Shown: positions 40,601 through 56,397 of the stretch, piece after piece
Position numbering within the stretch: the stretch's first letter is position 1
How the letters are laid out: each line of letters begins with the position of its first letter
DNA from: Amphirosellinia nigrospora
Lineage: Eukaryota; Ascomycota; Sordariomycetes; Xylariales; Xylariaceae
DNA: 64,000 bases
NCBI GenBank assembly: GCA_004123355.1
Contig: SCHM01000002.1
Span: forward strand, 3,817,569 to 3,881,568
Direction: 5' to 3'
Notes under the pieces: model-generated
The model's input: only the letters and a program-made list of their open reading frames with translations
Databases searched by the model: none
Told to the model about the DNA's origin: nothing
Translations under genes and position numbers: made by a program

Positions 40601-40895
40601 AGTTACGCTTATACACTTAAAAAAACAAAGCTTTAATATATATAGTATATTAATATAAAATCTACAAATAAAGTAAGAAAGAAAAAAAGTCTAAATCTAT
40701 AGTATAAATAGCTGCTTAAATATTTATATAAAGTAGTTATATTTATTACTAGTGCTTGCTTTTTTATTATAATTATATTTACTACGAATAGTAGTTATAC
40801 ATTTATTACAAGTAGTAGTTATTATAAGTAGAAATTATAGGTGCTATAGCTAATAGTAAGGCATAGCTACTAAAGCTTGTAGATTTATAACTACT
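40601..40895. repeat. RIP-degraded LTR-like repeat, copy 1
   Basis: Begins AGTTACGCTTATACACTT and ends near ATTTATAACTA. It aligns along its length with copies at 49283-49577 and 55526-55770 (shared core AAAAAAACAAAGCTTTAATA). Compared with copy 2 it has T or A at most positions where copy 2 has C or G. Probably one LTR of the retrotransposon whose RT lies at 43.6-44.0 kb. Confidence 0.7.
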
Positions 40896-43624
40896 TTTTT
40901 TTCGAAAAAAAAAATAACTTAATTAAGGTTAAAATTATAACTGTTTTTTAACGAAAAAAAGGATCGCTTCGGGTTTTTACTAATATAACTTTTTATAAAA
41001 CCTTTATACTATTAAATTATTATACTAGCTTTTTTATATATTGCTTAAAGTTTTTTTTGCTTAATATAATATTTAAGCATATATAGTATTTACGTATTTT
41101 TTTACTTTATATGTTTTTTTTTTGTGTTATTTTTCTTTTTATGCTATAGCTTTATTATTATTTAAATATAACTTATTAAATTTATTTTTTACGCTATTTT
41201 TAACTATATTTATAATTTTACTAAAAGTCCGGCTAAATTAAAGTTTATATTATAAAAATTTTTTAATACTTTTATATTGTTTTTAAAATTCTTTGCTAAA
41301 TATTATATATTATCGGGGTTTTAACTTTTTTAGTTTATTTAGTACTATAACTTCCGATAATAAAGTTGAAATATTTGTATTTTTTTAATAATAAATTTTT
41401 TTTTACTTTTAGGTTTTATTATTTTTTTTTTTAAGTTTTCTGCTTTTTAACCTAATAATAAATTATTTAAGTATTTTTATAGTCGATTTATATAATAATA
41501 GTTTAATATTTTCTAAGTTATAGGAACGTTTAGTACGAAAATATTTTTGTTTTTTTCGCGTATTTTAAATTTTTATTATATTATAAAAAAATCTAGCTTG
41601 TTTAATAAACGGTTTATTTTTTAAGACTATTTTTTTTTTAAAATTAATATATAATCTTTTATATTAAAATTAGGTTTACGTTAATTTTTATTAGCTTAAT
41701 TAGTTATATGTTCTTAAATATATTATAGGTTTTTTTTAGCTAATTTAACGAACTATATTATTTTTTTTACTTTTTTTTATATATTTATTTAAATTGTTTT
41801 TTTTTTTTTAAAAAGTTTTTATAGCTTTATATTTACGGTTTAATTTTCTTAGTTAAAATTAAATAATATTAAAAAACCTATTTTTATTTCGTAAAACAAT
41901 AATTTTATCGAAGTATAAAAAATTAAAGCCTATATATAATTTATAGCAAATATACGCTTAGACTAATTGTTTTAATAATAGTTTATATATAGTTATAATT
42001 TTTAGTTAATATATTTATTTATAATTTTTGCTTATTTTATAGTTTTATAATATTTTATAATAGCTAGTATATTTTATATTTATTAGCTTATATAGTTTAT
42101 TTATAAAAGCGAAAATAAACTAAAATTTTTGGTTTAAAGTTATAGTTATAAATATTCTAAAAATTTAAAAAAAATTTTTATAGTATTTTAATAGCGTTTT
42201 TTATAGTTGTTTTTATAGTATAAAGTATAGTTTAAGTTTATTTATTTAAACAGTTTATTTAATTAATATATTATTATATTTATATTTATTTTTAAATATT
42301 TGTTTAAAATTAATAATAAAGTAGCACTATATACGCTTAAATATTAAAAAAAGTATAAATTTATTAAAAATTTTATTTTTAAATATTTTAATAAGTTTAT
42401 ATTTTATATAGTTTATTATATAATAATTATAATTTTTGTTTAATTTTAGCTATTAGTAGCGTTTAATAATAAATTTGCGCGTTTTATTTTTGCTAAAATA
42501 TATAATAAATATTTTATAATATATTTTTTTAATAAAATATATTTATAAATATAAAAAATTAAAATAATTAAACGTCCGTAAAAAATAGTTAATTTGTTTT
42601 TTAATTTTTATGGGTTTTTTAGCTTATTATTTTTTATTCGTTAATAAAAATTTTATATTTATATTTTTACGGTTTTTTTTAAAAATTTGCTTAATTAACT
42701 ATAGTTCTATAAAAATATTTAATTCGTTATATATTTTAATAAAGCTTATTTAGTATAACTTTATTTATATAAAAATTAATTATACTATATTATTTATTAG
42801 CTAAAATATTATAAAGTAATATTATGTTTTTTTTTTAGCTTTTTATATTATTAGGTTTTTTTATTTTTATAATAAAACGTTAGCTAATATATTATTTTTA
42901 CCGGGGCGATATAATATTAAAAAATTATATTTTAAAAAAAAGTTAACTTATCCGGCTTATTTTAAATTAAAATATTATTTTTTACTAAAAAACTTTAATA
43001 TTTAATTATTAATAAATATTAAAAAAAGCTTATTATAATTACTAATTAATTTAAGTTTTTATTTTTTAAAGCATAGTATAATTATTAATAATTTTTTATT
43101 ATAAATATTATAATCTAATTTAACGTTATAAAATATTTTCGAAAAATATACTATAAAATATTAAGTTTTATTATATAGTTATAATAGTACGCTAGAACTA
43201 ACGCTATAAATAAATATTTTAACTTTTATTAATAAGTTATAATTAAAATATTTTAATAAAAAAAATCTTACTAAAGCTTTTTTAAACTAATAGAATAATT
43301 TTTTATATTTTTTAGTTTATTCGAAAAATATGCTTTTTTATATTAATCGGTTTAAAAGCGTTATAATATAACTTTAAGCATTAATAAAATCTCGGTAAAA
43401 ATTATAAAATCCTAAAAAAAATTATACGCTTTTAACTAATATAAAAATCTTTTACTTTAATATAATATTAATTTTAGCAAAATTTATTCGAATTTTTTTA
43501 GTATTAATAATATAGCTTAAAAACTTAGTTTTAATAATATAAAACTTAGACTTTTTTAAATTAATTTATAATTTAGCCTAAATTAATTATTTTAGCATAT
43601 AATATATATAAATAATATTTTTTT

Positions 43625-44003
43625 TATTATTTCTAAATAAATAATAATATTATCCGCGTAAACGCTATAAAAATTATCTAAAAAATTAAATAATATATTA
43701 TTAATATATTATTAAAACATTAAAAATCCGTTAATAAAACTAAATAATAATACTAATAATTAATACGTATTATATTTATATAAAACGTTATATAATTTTT
43801 ATTCCGAATAATATATAAATATAGTTAAATATTTATTATATATTAAATCGGGTAAAAATTTTCGCCTTAGTAATATAAGCCAAGGTTTTTTTAATAAAAA
43901 AAAGCGGATACTAGTTTTTTTTTATAATTTTGTTTAGCTTATAATAATTTATATAAAAGTAAAACCTATTATTTGTTTTTTTTATAAATAAAACGGGTAT
44001 ATT
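43625..44003 (-). pseudogene. Ty3/gypsy-type reverse transcriptase remnant
   Basis: Read on the minus strand, 43911-44003 translates as PVLFIKKTNNRFYFYINYYK then LN and, after a stop, YPL. This follows the gypsy RT pattern PVLF-KK-...-RF-VDYR-LN-...-YPL. Downstream, 43625-43685 reads DNFYSVYADNIIIY, the YxDD active-site box with its last Asp changed to Asn. The segment between has FGI and FN remnants and many stops. The losses are G:C to A:T changes as expected of RIP. The element therefore runs right to left, and the gene is dead. Confidence 0.75.
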
Positions 44004-44723
44004 ATATAAAGCATTATTAAGCTTAATAAAGCTTTTATATAAATTTTCGATTAAGAATTTTTATATAGCTTTTAGCTCGTTTAATAATATTTTATACAAA
44101 AAATTATAGCTTAAATTAGCTTTAAACTTACTTTTAATAAACTTTATTTTATAGTTTATTTATAGGCAATATAGTAGTAATGTATTAAAGTTTATTCGGC
44201 TAAAAACATATACTAAATTTTAATACTAAAAGCCTTTTAATTTAAGGGTAAAAATGTTTAAGTTTTTAGGAACTATATATTTAGGTTAGTAAATAAGTTA
44301 TAGTTGCCGGTTATATTAGTTTGTTTTTTTTAATAAGTTATATGTAGTAAAACCTGCTATTTTATTTTAATTTATTAACCGTAATATTTTGTTTTTTTAT
44401 ATAATTATATAATTACGTTATAAAATATTTAGCTATTTAGTTAATAGTAATAATAAATTTGTTTATAAATATAAACGTTAATATACGGTATTTTTTATAT
44501 ATTTGCTTTATTAATAATAGTAATATATACTAAAGTTATATTATTGTTTTATAATTAGATTATAATTTCGAGCTATAAAGCAAGATTAAAAAGTTAAATA
44601 TTATAGCGAATAATTAATTCTTATTTTAAGTAAAAAAAATTTATTGCAATATTAAAATTTTTAAACCGATTTTTAACCTAAGTAAGATTAAAAAAATTCT
44701 CCGGTAAATATAAATTATTATTT

Positions 44724-44810
44724 TAAATTTTAAATATAATTATAAACTATTTTTAATTTTAAATATAATTATAAGCTATTTTAATTTTAAATATAATTAC
44801 GAATTTTATA
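44724..44810. repeat. tandem repeat, about 29-bp unit x3
   Basis: Three consecutive AATTTTAAATATAATTA units inside the degraded retroelement, diverged by a few bases. Confidence 0.6.
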
Positions 44811-44869
44811 TTTTAAATAATAGTATTATTATAAATATATTAATTTTTATAACGTATTAAATTTTTATT

Positions 44870-45105
44870 TTTTTCGAAAAAAGCTTAAACTTATTAATAA
44901 GTTTAAAAAAACTTTATAAATTAGCTAAAACGTTTAAAAAAAAAAAACTTTTCGAAAAAAGCTTAAGCTTATTAATAAGTTTAAAAAAAACTTTATAAGC
45001 TAGCTAAAACGTTTAAAAAAAAAAACTTTTTAAAAAAAGCTTAAGTTTATTAACGAGTTTAAAAAAAACTTTATAAACTAACTAAAACGTTTAAAAAAAA
45101 AAAAC
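44870..45105. repeat. tandem repeat, 78-bp unit x3
   Basis: Three units recognisable by GCTTAA at 44883, 44961 and 45039, each followed by TTATTAA-AAGTTTAAAAAAA and GCTAAAACGTTTAAAAAA-type sequence. The exact 78-bp spacing is kept. Lies within the body of the degraded retroelement, upstream (minus sense) of its RT. Confidence 0.75.
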
Positions 45106-45439
45106 TCGAAAACTTAAAAAATATATTTATTACGATTAATTTAAAATTTTAAAGTTTTTAAAAACTTAAAGATTGCGCTTAAAATATATAATAAAAAGTA
45201 AAAAAATAAATAAAAAAAGTTATAAACGAATATTTTATAAAAAATATTGCTATATTTATTACGCTAATATAACGGTTAATTTTATAATAACTATAGTTTT
45301 TTAAAAAATAACTTAATAAAAGTTATATTTAAATAAAGTTTATAATAGCAGTATTAGTTTATAATTTAAAAATAATAAATATTTAAATTAATATTAAATT
45401 AAAAAAATAAAAAAATAGAATAACTATAAATATAATTAA

Positions 45440-45560
45440 ATAAAAATATTAAATAATTACGTTTAATATAACGTATAATTATTAAATAATTAGGTTTAAT
45501 AAAACGTATAACTATTAAATAATTAAATTTAATATAAAATTAAATTTAATATAATTTATA
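45440..45560. repeat. short AT tandem repeat, about 36-bp unit
   Basis: Repeated ATTAAATAATTA followed by TTTAATATAACGTATAA-like units, about three copies. Confidence 0.5.
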
Positions 45561-48500
45561 ATAAAAAAAATTAAAAATAAAACTTTATAATTTATTTATA
45601 TTATACTATTATTTTAATATAAATATTTAACTTTAAATTATTTTATTAAATTTATAGTTATTTATATAATAAAAAATAAATACTAAAGATTAAGTATATA
45701 CGATAATAAATAAAAATAAGGGGGTTTTTAATTCGAATAAAAGAATTTTTTATTTAAGATATAAAAAACAAAAAATTTTTTTATCGATAAGAAAACCTTT
45801 TTTTTACTTAGTTGTACCTCCTTTATAAAACTCAAGCATTTTTTAAGTATTTTTTTTGCGCTTTTTATTTTAACTTTTTATTTTTTTTTTTAAAAAATTA
45901 TTTTTATTTTTTTTTAATTTTTTAATTATTTTATCGACTTTATTAATATTAATAATATAAACGTTTTTTACCCGGTTTTTTTTTATTATTATATTAAAAA
46001 TAATTATATTTAAGCTAAATATTTTAATTATTAATTTTTTTTATATTAACTAATATTATTTGTTTTATATAATAAAAACTTTTTTTATTAAACTTTTAAA
46101 TAAAAATTAAAGTTATATTTTTCGCGAAAAAGCGTAGCTTATATTTTTTAAAAACAAATTCTAACGGGGGCTAGTTAGATATTATTTGCTTTATTTTATC
46201 GAAATCTTTTTATATTAAATTACTACGCTTTAAAATAAATATTTTTAGTTTTACGTCCTTTAAATATTATTTTGCTTTTTTTTATTATTATTAACGCCGT
46301 ATTTTTTTAATCTTAAAGTTATAATTTTATCGATTAGCGTTAAGTTAATAAGCTAAATATTATAGCTATATACTTATTTTATTTATTATTAAATAATATT
46401 TTATATTATAATTAAAAAGTAGCTAAAATAAAAATATTAAACGGTTTTATTAATAGTTTAAAAATATTATAATATTTAAACTATAGTTTATTTAAAATAA
46501 TATTATAAATTAAATTAATAATAGTTATAAGTTTATTTTTAAAAGTTTTTTATATATTTTTAATAATAATAAAAAAGCTTAATTAATATTTTTTTCGTTT
46601 TTGCTATTATATTTTATAATTTTTTTAGCAAAAAAGTTTATATAATAATAAAGTTAAATAGTTTAATAATTTTTTCCGCGAATCGTTAGTTATATTTATA
46701 ATATATTTATTTTTATATTTTTAAAAAATTATCTATAGTTAAAAAAATCTATTACTATATAAAATATAAGTATATAATAAAGGTTTTTTGCTTAAATACT
46801 TTTTTATTAGATTTATTTTATAATTAATAGTATTTTTTAAAAATATTTTTTTAAAAAAAAAGCTATTTTTTTTAAAGTTATTTTTTTTTTTTTATGCTTA
46901 TTATAAGTTTATTTTTTTATATATTAGCCGGCTTAGTATCCGATATATTATATATAGCTAAAATAGCAGCAATTTAAGCTTTTTTATTTATTAGAGTTTA
47001 ATTTTTTAAAAAGTATTTTTTCGAAGTATATTTTTATTAACAATAATTAAAGCATTTATTATTAAAAATTAATTATTATATTTTATTAGCGTTAAGTTTA
47101 AATAATTAAGTAAAATTATATTATTATTATTTAGTTTCGGAATAAAATAAAAGGTTGTTTAAACAAAAGTAAAAAAAAAAAAAAATAAAAATTTAGTAGT
47201 AAACGTAAACTTTATATTTTTTTTTTAGTTTTATTTCGTTTATAGTTAGTTATTATTAAGTAATAAATTATTTAAAAATAATATTTTACGTAAATATTAA
47301 AGTTAATATTTTTTTTTAAATATTTTAATATAGCTTTAGTTATTAATTAAAAAAATAACTTATTTTTAAATTTTTTTTTATTTAGCTTTGTTAAGTTTAG
47401 TTTTATTAGCTAAACGGACAAAAATAATTTAAAACTTAAAAAATTTAGCTAATATATACTAATTAAAACTAAATAATTAAAAGTTAGCTTTTGTTTTTTT
47501 ATTACGGTTAATATCGATATAAATTTTTTAAAATGTTTTAAAATAATTTTTAAATTAATAAATACGTTAAAATGGTCGGATAAAAATAAAAAAAGAAATT
47601 ATTAGCTATATAGTTTTCGATATAGGTTTTAATATTAATTATTTTAGCTATATTATTATAGAACTAATTAGCGTTAAATTTAAAACGATTTTATATAGTT
47701 CGAATTTATATTTTAAATTTAAATTTATTTTTAGTTATATTATTATAAAATAAATATTAATATTTTAGCCGTATATTGGCTATTTTTTTATTGTTTAATA
47801 AAGCAAAAGTTGCTTTATAACGACTTAGTAAATTAACTATTTGCTAGTTTAAAGTATTTAAGTTATTTTAAGCGCGGTTGCGCTATTTAGTTATTTTTTA
47901 TAGTTTATTTAATAATTAATTAATAGTTTATTAGTTAGTTTATTATTAGCTAAAATTACTTTTAGTTATAAGTTAAAAACGTTAGTAATATATTTAATAT
48001 AATATGTTTTATTGTAAAAAATAGCAATTTTATTTTATTTTTTTGTTTAGTCGAATAAAACTTTGTTTTGTTTATTTAACTTTTTAGCGAATATATAAGT
48101 TAGTAGCAAAATAATAAAAGCCGTTATTAAAAAAACGTATATTTTTATTTTTTAGAAAACAGCAGTAAAATTTTTATATATATTTTTATATTAGTTTAGT
48201 TTATATTTTTATCGAAATTAAGCTAGATTATTTTGTTATAATATATTTTAGTTTAAAATAAAAGCTAGGCTTAGTATTTTTTATTTATAGTTTAGCGTAA
48301 TTATTAGCTAAATATTAAACCGTTTAATTAAAACTAATAATATTTATATCGAATTTTTATTTTTTAAATATATAGTTATTAATAGTATTATAAAACTATT
48401 ATAAAATTAATTAAAAGTAATTAGCTTTATAGCTTGCTATTATAGTTTCCGCGTAATTAAAAAAGCTAAAGTAAATATATTTTTTTTATTTGCTAGAGTT

Positions 48501-48716
48501 TTATTATAAAAGCTTATTGTTTCGAATATTTAAAGCAAATAAGTTTGAAATAAATAAAAGCTTTAGCACGTATAGCTATACGCGCTTATTATTTTAGTTC
48601 TTTTTAGGAAATATTTTAATATTTTTAAATTAAATTAATTATTTAGTTTAGTTAAAAAATATTATAAAAGTAATTTTAATACTTTATAATATTTTAAGTA
48701 ATTTATAAATAGTTAT

Positions 48717-48903
48717 TGTCACAGCCTACAGTGACCTGTGCAGTGAAGCTGCGGCACTGTAGCTGTGGACTATATACAGTAGCTTAGTAACCAAGGCTGT
48801 CACCTTGGTTATTCTGATCCCTTTTGGCAGATGCCCCAACTGGTTAGGTGTGCGCACCCGGCAGGTCCACCAGGCTACTGTGGTTTATAGCTTGTCCGTC
48901 ACA
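48717..48903. repeat. 5' terminal repeat of the TRIM-like element
   Basis: 187 bp, TGTCACAGCC...GTCCGTCACA. Contains an inverted pair AACCAAGG/CCTTGGTT (48790-48812) and a tRNA D-arm-like CCCAACTGGTTAGGTG (48836-48851). Confidence 0.85.
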
Positions 48904-49097
48904 ATAACCAAGGTACCTATGGGTCCAGTGTTCGAGCCCTGGACTTGGCAAAAGCGGCACCTGCGCTTTTCCGGATTAGTGGTATATACTGGCGTACGAA
49001 AGAAGCCAGGCCCCTCTAAGGTTCCTAAGATATGCTCGCTTGAGCCCCGTGCGGCAGGGGTTCAAGGTCTTCGGGACGAAGCCTTAGTGACGCGGGG

Positions 49098-49282
49098 GGT
49101 CACAGCCTACAGTGACCTGTGCAGTGAAGCTGCGGCACTGTAGCTGTGGACTATATACAGTAGCTTAGTAACCAAGGCTGTCACTTGGTTATTCTGATCC
49201 CTTTGGCAGATGCCCCAACTGGTTAGGTGTGCGCACCCGGCAGGTCCACCAGGCTACTGTGGTTTATAGCTTGTCCGTCACA
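49098..49282. repeat. 3' terminal repeat of the TRIM-like element
   Basis: 185 bp, same as the 5' copy apart from the first base (G for T) and single missing C and T in CACCTTGG and CCCTTTTGG. Confidence 0.85.
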
Positions 49283-49577
49283 GTTATGCTTTATATATTT
49301 AAAAAAACAAAGCTTTAATATATATAGTATATTATATATAAAATCTATAAATAAAGTAAGAAAAAAAAAAGGTCTAAATTTATAATAAAGTAGCTGTTTA
49401 AATATTTATATAGGGCAGCTATATTTACTGCTAATGTTTGCCTTCATTTATTACAACTATATTCATTGCGAATAGCAGTCACGCATTTATTGCAAGTGGT
49501 AGTTATTATAGTAGAGATTACGGGTATTATAGCTAGTAGTGGGGCACAGCCATTAGAGCTTGCAGATCTGTAACTAT
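49283..49577. repeat. LTR-like repeat, copy 2, lightly RIPed
   Basis: Begins GTTATGCTTTATATATTT directly after the TRIM-like element and ends near CTGTAACTA. It matches copy 1 over about 295 bp but keeps many C and G bases (for example ACGGGTATTATAGC and GGGGCACAGCCATTAG). Likely the other LTR of the degraded gypsy element, with copy 1 about 8.7 kb away. The TRIM-like element sits at its left border. Confidence 0.7.
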
Positions 49578-49955
49578 TTTTATTTTAGTTGCGATAAAGC
49601 CGGAGCAAAACAACAATTCTTTTAAATTACTATTAACTGGTTTATTGCTTTGCAATCTGGCTTTTTTTTTTGTTACTTGTTAAAATTTCAGTAGAAGTTA
49701 TACATATTTTTTACGGCATTAATTACATGTTTAGATTAGAAACAAGACAAAAGCCTTGTTTTTTTATTCGCTTAATAAAAAGGATTGTTAAAGAATTTCT
49801 CCAGTAATAAAAGGGTTGTTTAAAAACAATGGATTCTATTGAAACAGACTTTATAAGATCTCGAATATAATATTTTACGGTGTTGCTTAGTGAGAAAGAT
49901 TTGCTATTCACACATAATATCTTTATTGTAACCAAACAACCTTAACACAACCACT

Positions 49956-50573: not shown

Positions 50574-53500
50574 GGCGCTGCATAACAAGTAAGTCACCCC
50601 GGCCCTGAACGAAAAATTAGAACAGTGAGTACTTTGAGCTATTTTCATAATAGTATTTCTATACTTTTATTTTTCACCAAATATATTTAATAATAATAGA
50701 CTTTTATTTTATCTTTAATAAACAATAAATTATATGTGACTTGTTATATAGCTTACACGTGGGATTTTAAAGACTCATATAAAAAGAAGTGCTTATGGGC
50801 TATTTATGTAGAGTTTAAATATATTAGATCCCATATTGTAATAATAATACTCGTAATATCCCAAGTTAACTCTTTATTAAAATAAGACGTAGAACACTAT
50901 CTACTTATTGTTGCACAAAGGTCTCCGAAACCCCTGCGTAGAGGTAATACACGAAGTCTTTTTGTTTATACTATTCTTAAGCTTTTAAAAGCATAATTTG
51001 CTATTTTAAGTAAGATCTTAGCTCTAAAGATATATTTTTAAAGCTTTAAAAACATATTTCTAGAGCTATTAATTAATATATAATTTTAAACATTTTTTTT
51101 GTTTTTATTAAGTTTAAAGTTAAAATTAAAAAACTAAAGCTTTTAAAAACCTTAAAAAGATTATTAGCTAAATTAAATATATTTTAAGCATTTTATTATA
51201 TTAACCGTAGCTTATTATTTATTTTAAAATAAAAATAATAAAATAAAATAATTATATTTATACGTAATATTTATTAAAAACGGTGCTTTAAGTAAGTAGT
51301 CCGCCTAATAATATATCCGTTATCGATTCTTTTGTTAGCATAATTTAGCATAACGTTAATAATTACCTGTAGTTGGACGTTCGGACGTTTAGCTAGCTTT
51401 TTTATCGAAATCCAAAATCTATATAACTTTTTTGCCCTAACGCAGTTTATAAAAGCAGGTTCTTATATAGCTAAAATAAATATATTAACGTTAAAATAAT
51501 ACGCGTTTTTTTATAGCTTTATAATATTTCGTTTAAGCTTTATATTTTATTAAAAAAAAAAAAGCGTTTATTAATCTATTTTTTTAGCAATTATATATTT
51601 TTTTCTTAATAAATAATTAATAATAATAACGTTTAAATTATTAGCTATTATTTATTAATTATATAACGTTCTAGCTTTATAAAAAATTTTTTATTAAGCT
51701 TATATTTATAAACTATAGTAAAAAAAAAGCAGTATAATCTGCTTTAAAAATATTTTTTAATAAATAAAAGCTTAGTTAAATTTATAACTTTATATTAAAA
51801 TATATAGTATATTTTTTAAAAAAAATAAAAAAATTTAAACTAATAAAATATTTTTTTATAAAAATATAAATATAAAGCAAATAAATTAATATTTTACGAA
51901 TAAAAAAAATATATGCTAAGTTTTTTAAAATAAAAACGTAATAATTATATTTAATTTTTAAAGCTTTTTTTAAATATTAATCGATTTATTTAATATAATT
52001 TCGTAAACGCTAAACTAACTATTTATAAAAATAATTTAAAACAAAAAAATCTTTTTATTTTTAAAAAATAAAAATTTATACGTTATAAGCTATAAATAAT
52101 TAAAAAATAGTTTATATTAGCTAAAAATTATTTTAAATTTAATTAGCGCTAATAATATAGTTTTAAAGTTCGTAAAATAGTAAAAATAAAAAAATATTAT
52201 AAATATTACGTTTTTATTATTTAAAATTAAAAAAACGGATAATAACTTTAAAAAAAAATAACGATTTAAATATATAAAATTAATAATTAGCTATTTTATT
52301 TAAGCTAAAAAAATTATTTATTTTAAATATTTTATAATAAACTAAAAATTTTCGGAAAGCTTTTAAAATACTACTAATAAATAAATATAATAATTTTAAG
52401 TATTTTTTTTTAAAAGCGCTCCTAATAAATTAAAAGCTTTTATTAAATTAAAATAATATTAAAGTATTATTATAATAAATTTTATAATTTTAATAAAAAA
52501 TTAATAATAAAAAAAATAGTAAAGTTTTAATTTATAATAGTTATAAATTAAGCTAAAATTTTAATAAAAAAGTATTAAAATTAAAAAAATATTTTTATAA
52601 GTTTTAAAAAATAATACTACTAATTTATATTTTTAAATACTATATAAAACTAAAAATTCTTAAACTTAAATATTAGCTAAAAAAATAATTAATTTATTTT
52701 AAAATAAATTAACTATTAGTTTAATAATTTCTTAATATTTTATAAAATATTTTTATTAAACTTTTTGCTATAATTTTTATAAAATAACATTATTATTAAA
52801 TTATTTTTATAAGCTTTATATAATTATATAGCTATATATAAAAATCTTTTTATTTAATTAATTTTTAATTTTATTTTTAATACTAATTAATTAATAAAAA
52901 TATAAATATTAACTACTAAAATATTTACTATATATTATTAAACTAATTTATATATTAAAAAAAAAAATTTTTATATAATTAAATAATTATATAAACTTAC
53001 GGAAATAACTTTATTAATTTTTTATATAATAATAAATATTTATATTTTATTTTATAAATTTATAAAGCTTTTTTATTATACCGGATATTATTTTAATATA
53101 TAGCTGTTTTTATTTATATAATATTATTTTAACGAAAAAAATAAAAACTTAAATATAAAAGCTAAATAAGTTTATATTATTTTTATTTTTAAAAAATTAT
53201 ATAATAAAGCTAAAAAAATAAAAAATCGGATAAATCTAACTTTTTATAATTTTATAAAAAAATTTAAATATAATTATATAATATTAATTTAAATTAAAAA
53301 ATAATAAAATTATTTAATCGATAATATTTAAATTTAGTATTATTATCGATAATTTTATTAAATGTTTTAATAACGCGTAAAAACTTATTATATAAATATA
53401 GTTTTTTTTTTTTACTTTTAAGCAGAAAAAACTATATAGCTATATAAACTAACTTACGTTATAAAATAATAAATTTATTTAATAAAATTATATTAAATAA

Positions 53501-56132: not shown

Positions 56133-56397
56133 TGTCACAGCCCCACTCTTTTGACCCACTTATCTAGGGCTGTGGCTGCACTGTGGCTGCCCCACAGGGA
56201 ATGTGTGGCAGTACTGGGCTGGGCGGTGTGTGGCGGCAGTACTGGGCGGTGTGGGGCACACACCCACAAATACTTATTACCACCTGCAGGTCAATGTACT
56301 GGTACTTTCTTCCTTCTTTCCCTAAGTAGAATATTAGCTTTTAATATAGGGTAAATTAGGTGTCTGAACCTTTTGCCTGTGTTGTATCTATTACAAT
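56133..56397. mobile_element. solo LTR with 5-bp target duplication
   Basis: A 265-bp GC-normal island that starts TGTCACAGCC and ends TATTACA. It is flanked by ATAAG on both sides (56128-56132 and 56398-56402). The TG...CA ends and TSD mark it as an LTR left after recombination or a very small element. Its first ten bases equal those of the TRIM-like element. Inside, GGCAGTACTGGGC occurs twice. Not RIP-mutated. A 67-codon open frame over it is not protein-like. Confidence 0.75.

Follow-up and report, generated by a model that had tools for sequence, protein, structure and literature searches.

A miniature LTR retrotransposon family of Amphirosellinia nigrospora that appears to be self-primed, and its likely Gypsy helper

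The element and its insertion site

The window (the whole stretch of 64,000 nucleotides analysed here, from contig SCHM01000002.1 of Amphirosellinia nigrospora) contains at 48717-49282 a 566-bp element with two long terminal repeats (LTRs). We consider it very probable that this element is a young copy of a family of terminal-repeat retrotransposons in miniature (TRIMs) that would be self-primed and would receive its proteins in trans from a larger Gypsy family, called X in this work. The element lies within another Gypsy element, called Z, which carries the damage of repeat-induced point mutation (RIP). The features of the locus are as follows.

48712..48716, + strand: left copy of the target-site duplication GTTAT
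48717..48903, + strand: 5' LTR, 187 bp, TGTCACAGCC...GTCCGTCACA
48771..48776, + strand: TATATA box; the self-primer stretch starts 31 bp downstream
48802..48813, + strand: predicted RNA 5' end (start of R) and own primer, ACCTTGGTTATT; start placed from the TATA spacing
48903..48914, + strand: primer-binding stretch, AATAACCAAGGT, exact reverse complement of 48802-48813
48904..49098, + strand: internal region, 195 bp
49085..49098, + strand: polypurine-tract-like end of the internal region, TAGTGACGCGGGGG
49099..49282, + strand: 3' LTR, 184 bp; 0 substitutions and 3 gap events against the 5' LTR
49283..49287, + strand: right copy of the target-site duplication GTTAT
40613..49578, - strand: host of the insertion, the chromodomain Gypsy element Z with RIP damage; its LTRs are matched at 40613-40893 and 49289-49576
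56133..56397, + strand: solo LTR of X (the putative helper), TGTCACAGCCCC...ATCTATTACA, with ATAAG on both sides

The sequence confirms the two LTRs and the GTTAT on both sides that the initial annotation described. Of the repeat lengths given there, 187 and 185 bp, the former stands and the latter becomes 184 bp, as the first T is absent from the 3' LTR. The two LTRs align over 184 bases without a substitution. All three gap events are bases absent from the 3' LTR, and two of them lie within CC and TTTT runs, so that assembly consensus errors are possible for those two. Within the window BLAST returned only these two copies of the repeat, and the repeats are thus not part of a longer tandem array, an arrangement that had been named as a possible refutation. 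Four open reading frames of at least 30 aa overlap the element, none with an ATG start; the longest (112 aa, TTG start, 48805-49143) runs from LTR into LTR, and the copies of the family differ by indels there.

The G+C content of the element is 53.9% versus 15.6% and 26.4% in its two 500-base flanks. Over the window it is about 50%, dropping to 9-18% past 41 kb, with richer islands at about 48-51 kb and at 56 kb. The G+C values and the LTR identity agree with the earlier description of a clean copy in RIPed DNA. The window copy is clean and young, its lack of LTR-LTR substitutions supporting a recent insertion, and of the two explanations first offered, insertion after the last RIP cycle is the one that this result favours.

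The insertion site was compared with a copy of Z of normal G+C content elsewhere in the genome (L046), whose proteins match the window on the minus strand from 48.6 kb down to 41.2 kb. The TRIM lies inside the last 7 bp of the Z 5' LTR, adjoining the Z primer site. We joined the window flanks with a single GTTAT and aligned them to the 5' LTR and primer-site region of L046. The alignment is gapless except at its ends: 109 of 177 columns are alike, with 27 C-to-T, 33 G-to-A and 1 other difference and 7 end-gap columns, so that 60 of the 61 substitutions are C-to-T or G-to-A (16, 24 and 1 other for the left flank only). L046 thus provides the empty site that had been proposed as a check, as a paralogous site within a single genome and not an allelic one, and it carries a single GTTAC. 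Together with the Z flanks, this alignment bears out the nesting in RIPed DNA. The C of the Z pentamer is T in both GTTAT copies, in keeping with insertion of the TRIM after RIP of Z; an independent C-to-T change in both duplication copies is also possible in DNA so heavily damaged. Another TRIM copy (L003) was inserted elsewhere in another copy of the Z LTR, at a site that is unoccupied in both L046 and the window. The DNA around the Z LTR and TRIM of L003 also has a copy in the window, at 50970-51300, apparently without that insertion.

The family in the genome and its RIP damage

A DNA search of the same genome (48.1 Mb, 11 contigs, the window being part of contig C4) gave at least 21 matches to the element. 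Two of these, L006 and L013, belong to a single inverted composite, so the number of loci is at least 20. The BLAST check suggested in the initial annotation therefore returns a family of short two-LTR copies and not a single-copy sequence, in support of the TRIM-like identity. Eight full copies have two readable LTRs (L001, L003, L004, L005, L007, L009, L010 and L011); they measure 502-566 bp, with LTRs of 156-187 bp. A ninth, L002, has an insertion of about 200 bp within its 5' LTR, and the LTR comparison does not include it; L008 is without a 5' LTR, and the remaining loci are solo LTRs or fragments. The 5-bp duplications match at 18 of the 20 loci, three of them at 4/5 bases: 12 are simple and exact, two are simple at 4/5 (L002, L016) and four belong to composites (L008, L011 and L006/L013 exact, L010 at 4/5). 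L014 has no matching duplication and L020 is truncated.

Two of these loci have an unusual structure. L006/L013 (contig C1, about 1121775-1122451) is an inverted TRIM composite. Each of its outer ends is a U3 start and is bordered by a G run; the left part finishes with the primer complement AATAACCAAGGT(AC), and the pair lies within a GGGGGG run ahead of a Z-like LTR. L014 (about 972-1650) has an X LTR that is interrupted by some 200 bp of inserted DNA with the ends TGTCACG...CCGTGACA; after it come 16 nt of TRIM tract and then a TRIM LTR, and the locus has no matching duplication.

The eight full copies carry the following numbers of LTR-LTR substitutions: 0 in L001 and L003, 1 in L004 and L005, 11 in L007, 6 in L009, 12 in L010 and 44 in L011. 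All 75 are transitions, and 47 are in CpA/TpG context. The notion that RIP spares short repeats is a familiar one, and the TRIM could be clean as being too short or too diverged for RIP and not as being young, a reading that we regard as tentative and somewhat doubtful. It agrees with the clean state of L003, L004 and L005, two of which have flanks of 8-15% G+C, and with the eight solo TRIM LTRs measured, at 48-53% G+C. It also agrees with the X LTRs: of 41 matches listed, 15 besides the window's own stay 91-96% like the window's clean X LTR (two of the X copies read end to end match it at 87% and 84%; the third is outside that list). However, four of the eight full copies (L007, L009, L010, L011) carry 6-44 substitutions of this kind, and all 44 of L011 are in the LTR adjoining X, which looks like a spread of RIP out of X. 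The TRIM family is not immune to RIP. The second explanation of the initial annotation, that the repeats are below the length that RIP detects, thus fails as full protection and may keep a partial role: short size may help against RIP.

Self-priming signals and joint insertions with X

Primer sites for tRNA start with TGG. The stretch after the 5' LTR starts with ATAACC, and by this rule, with no comparison to the tRNA genes of the genome, there is no tRNA-type primer site. It complements the LTR instead: its 12 nt, the first of which is the last base of the 5' LTR, pair with the self-primer stretch. This LTR-anchored 12-nt complement is present in seven of the eight full copies, the eighth being the RIP-damaged L011, and only 1 of 2000 shuffled LTRs equalled the complement of the window copy. 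The TATATA box lies 31 bp from the primer stretch in five of the eight copies and 29 bp in two (again L011 is RIP-damaged). A search with the primer-site pattern, allowing at most 2 mismatches, gave 16 matches versus 8 for the reversed control; 12 of the 16 lie in known TRIM loci, and the other four all have 2 mismatches. A G-rich tract ending GGGGG or GGGGGT precedes the 3' LTR in all eight copies. The internal region folds into four helices that are paired in all ten aligned copies, with three pairs changed on both sides; L011 was left out of this alignment because its paired C-to-T and G-to-A changes mimic compensation. These helices are candidate RNA signals for packaging or reverse transcription.

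The TRIM family thus appears to prime its own copying with its own RNA, like Tf1, whose self-priming mechanism serves as our model. We infer the following course. RNA polymerase II would start about 30 bp below the TATATA box, giving a transcript that begins with ACCTTGGTTATT. Its 5' end would fold back onto AATAACCAAGGT at the boundary of LTR and internal region and prime the minus strand, as in Tf1, and plus strands would begin at the G-rich tract ahead of the 3' LTR. The internal region of about 195 bases would act as a structured RNA with signals required in cis. Gag, reverse transcriptase and integrase would be supplied in trans by X, the larger Gypsy family, which is self-priming too and shares its LTR ends with the TRIM.

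Family X is about 7.1 kb between its LTR ends, with LTRs of about 265 bp (TGTCRCAGCCCC...CATCACA). Ten starting bases are common to the X and TRIM LTRs and the end letters are similar; the bodies are unlike. Compared with the Z proteins, one X copy (L057/L060) has matches to reverse transcriptase (3.0e-13) and to RNase H/integrase (4.6e-29) and, in the chromodomain test, a short one at the C-terminus (4.7e-4), RIP hiding the remainder. Another, L058/L059, is RIP-damaged and matches reverse transcriptase only (3.9e-5). In a search for an intact X, for which 40 of 77 candidates were scored, three RNase H matches were placed in X copies (one by sequence, two by distance only), all with stops.

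The link between the two families comes from three loci at which X and TRIM are joined head to head. In L010 and L011 X and the TRIM meet directly at their first bases; in L008 X abuts the TRIM primer site. The outer pentamers are ATTTT/AAAAT in L008, TTAAT/GTTAA in L010 (one C-to-T) and ATTAG/CTAAT in L011, where ATTAG or ATTAA had been predicted before the sequence was read. The chance of such a match at nearby positions is 0.0176, 0.0154 (C-to-T allowed) and 0.0024, respectively, with a product of about 6.5e-7. Integration of a pair as one molecule demands that the pentamers beyond its two far ends match; they do so, and X and TRIM DNA were thus joined end to end before they integrated as a unit. 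This suggests that X is likely the helper of the TRIM, and its proteins may also copy and package the TRIM. A full-length partner sharing the TGTCACAGCC end had been sought from the start; X shares that end, although it was recognised by way of composite insertions and the copies read are RIP-damaged.

It is an unlikely extension of this model that cDNA joining to the helper before integration is a recurrent route, by which the TRIM enters the chromosome covalently joined to X. At three of the 20 loci the TRIM would have arrived in this way. The ends that were joined resemble what self-primed reverse transcription yields: in L008 the TRIM part starts from the primer site, and in L006/L013 the left part consists of an LTR and the primer complement, similar to a plus-strand strong-stop product.

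Several observations weigh against self-priming with X as helper, a mechanism built on sequence comparison. The primer-binding stretch of L008 is one base short, L011 keeps only 6 nt, and the 3' LTR of the window copy is without one C in the primer stretch. The likeness between X and TRIM LTR bodies is not above that of shuffles (31, 51 and 74 of 500 were as high for L001, L003 and L004), and no TRIM match was seen in the two X copies searched, so that neither descent nor a common packaging signal emerges from them. RIP has damaged all three X copies read end to end, and the young copy may have been helped by an X since lost or by a different family. Two cDNAs may also be present in the same nucleus although neither serves the other, and L014, with its X LTR, 16-nt TRIM tract and unmatched duplication, does not fit.

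An ordinary TRIM could also have been moved by another, unnamed Gypsy element, with the X-TRIM composites being chance neighbours. X is abundant (77 and 87 first-look candidates), TRIMs do insert into elements, L002 lies beside an X LTR in X-like DNA, and the window copy and L003 were both inserted in Z. We hold this account to be improbable, as the three junctions abut, two of them without base loss, and the outer pentamers match at all three loci (two exactly), a pairing that separate insertion of the TRIM or of X does not predict. Smaller still is the probability of a short interspersed element (SINE)-like or RNA polymerase III TRIM of the Helenus or Cassandra type with a tRNA-like promoter. 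Its A- and B-like stretches would be TGCCCCAACTGG in the LTR and GTTCGAGCC in the internal region, a likeness read by eye against what we take to be the box letters; GTTCGAGCC is kept in nine of ten aligned rows, L002 having GTTCAAGCC. ARAGORN (bacterial settings) found no tRNA in the window, and Rfam gave no tRNA or 5S match at 48600-49400 down to E = 5; on these results a polymerase III or SINE origin was rejected. The TATATA box 29-31 bp ahead of the primer stretch in seven of eight copies also speaks against it, as does the position of the B-like stretch outside the LTR, unlike Helenus (PMC10886601).

Two further Gypsy elements were rejected as helpers. Z is self-primed, but its ends GTTACGG...CGTAACTA are unlike those of the TRIM. 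The ends of family G3 (L048-L052), TGTGGCTCC...GCACAA, do not match either, and its self-complement is 4 nt. G3 (contigs C1 and C4; about 5.7 kb, LTRs of about 211 bp, long open frames) has LTRs 98-100% identical within copies where both were read; it is a recent multi-copy element, free of RIP in a genome where RIP operates. Contig C9 (1.3 Mb) has several RNase H family matches without stops, many elsewhere having stops, and is perhaps less RIPed.

Comparison with known miniature retrotransposons

TRIMs have been defined by terminal direct repeats of 100-250 bp and a length below 1000 bp (PMC6934838). The window family has these sizes, the 5-bp duplications and, in eight full copies, a polypurine-tract-like end. 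By the TGG rule a tRNA-complementary primer site is absent, so that, taken strictly, it is a TRIM variant. It resembles the TRIMs of plants, animals and fungi (PMC6934838; Gao et al. 2016, PMC4717578) in being below 1 kb, with short LTRs, 5-bp duplications and solo LTRs; those are described as tRNA-primed, whereas the window family would be self-primed. Helpers of known TRIMs were recognised via sequence similarity, here via composite insertions. A bivalve TRIM is likewise without a conventional primer site, and its authors recall the self-priming of other elements; they propose no mechanism, whereas the window family has an LTR-anchored complement (PMC6934838). The elements listed there after Lin and Levin 1997 are full-length; no protein gene was seen in the window element.

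Helenus (Kojima 2024, PMC10886601) is likewise a group of TRIMs in fungi, with numerous families, solo LTRs and target duplications of 5 bp. Its LTRs are described as having tRNA-like boxes and as primed by tRNA 3' ends or anticodon loops, neither of which the window family shows, and the fungal members are thought to depend on Copia, whereas the window family is tied to a Gypsy element. ARAGORN in the window and Rfam at 48600-49400 gave no tRNA-like sequence in the LTR, and the same Rfam search no 5S rRNA-like sequence as in Cassandra. In Oryza brachyantha, FRetro129 (SMART) and FRetro64 also pair a tiny element with a putative helper of unlike LTRs with a short common motif (PMC3281118); their internal sequences are 96% alike, whereas internal likeness between X and the TRIM was not seen and the tie is co-insertion. 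The initial remark that fungal TRIMs are described in few lineages is dated, with 113 Helenus TRIM families reported from rust fungi alone (PMC10886601) and predicted TRIMs named in Venturia (PMC4646964).

Among plant TRIM subfamilies, 11 of 289 have a related longer element (PMC4717578), and how the dependence of a TRIM on its helper is kept up is stated to be unknown (PMC10886601). In open-access PMC literature, seen mostly at listing level and with subscription literature outside the scope, we found no self-primed TRIM and no co-insertion of helper and TRIM. Composite insertions with one common target duplication provide a helper test that uses sequence only, needs no similarity between the partners and is applicable to other genomes. 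A self-primed TRIM could escape annotation that demands a tRNA primer site.
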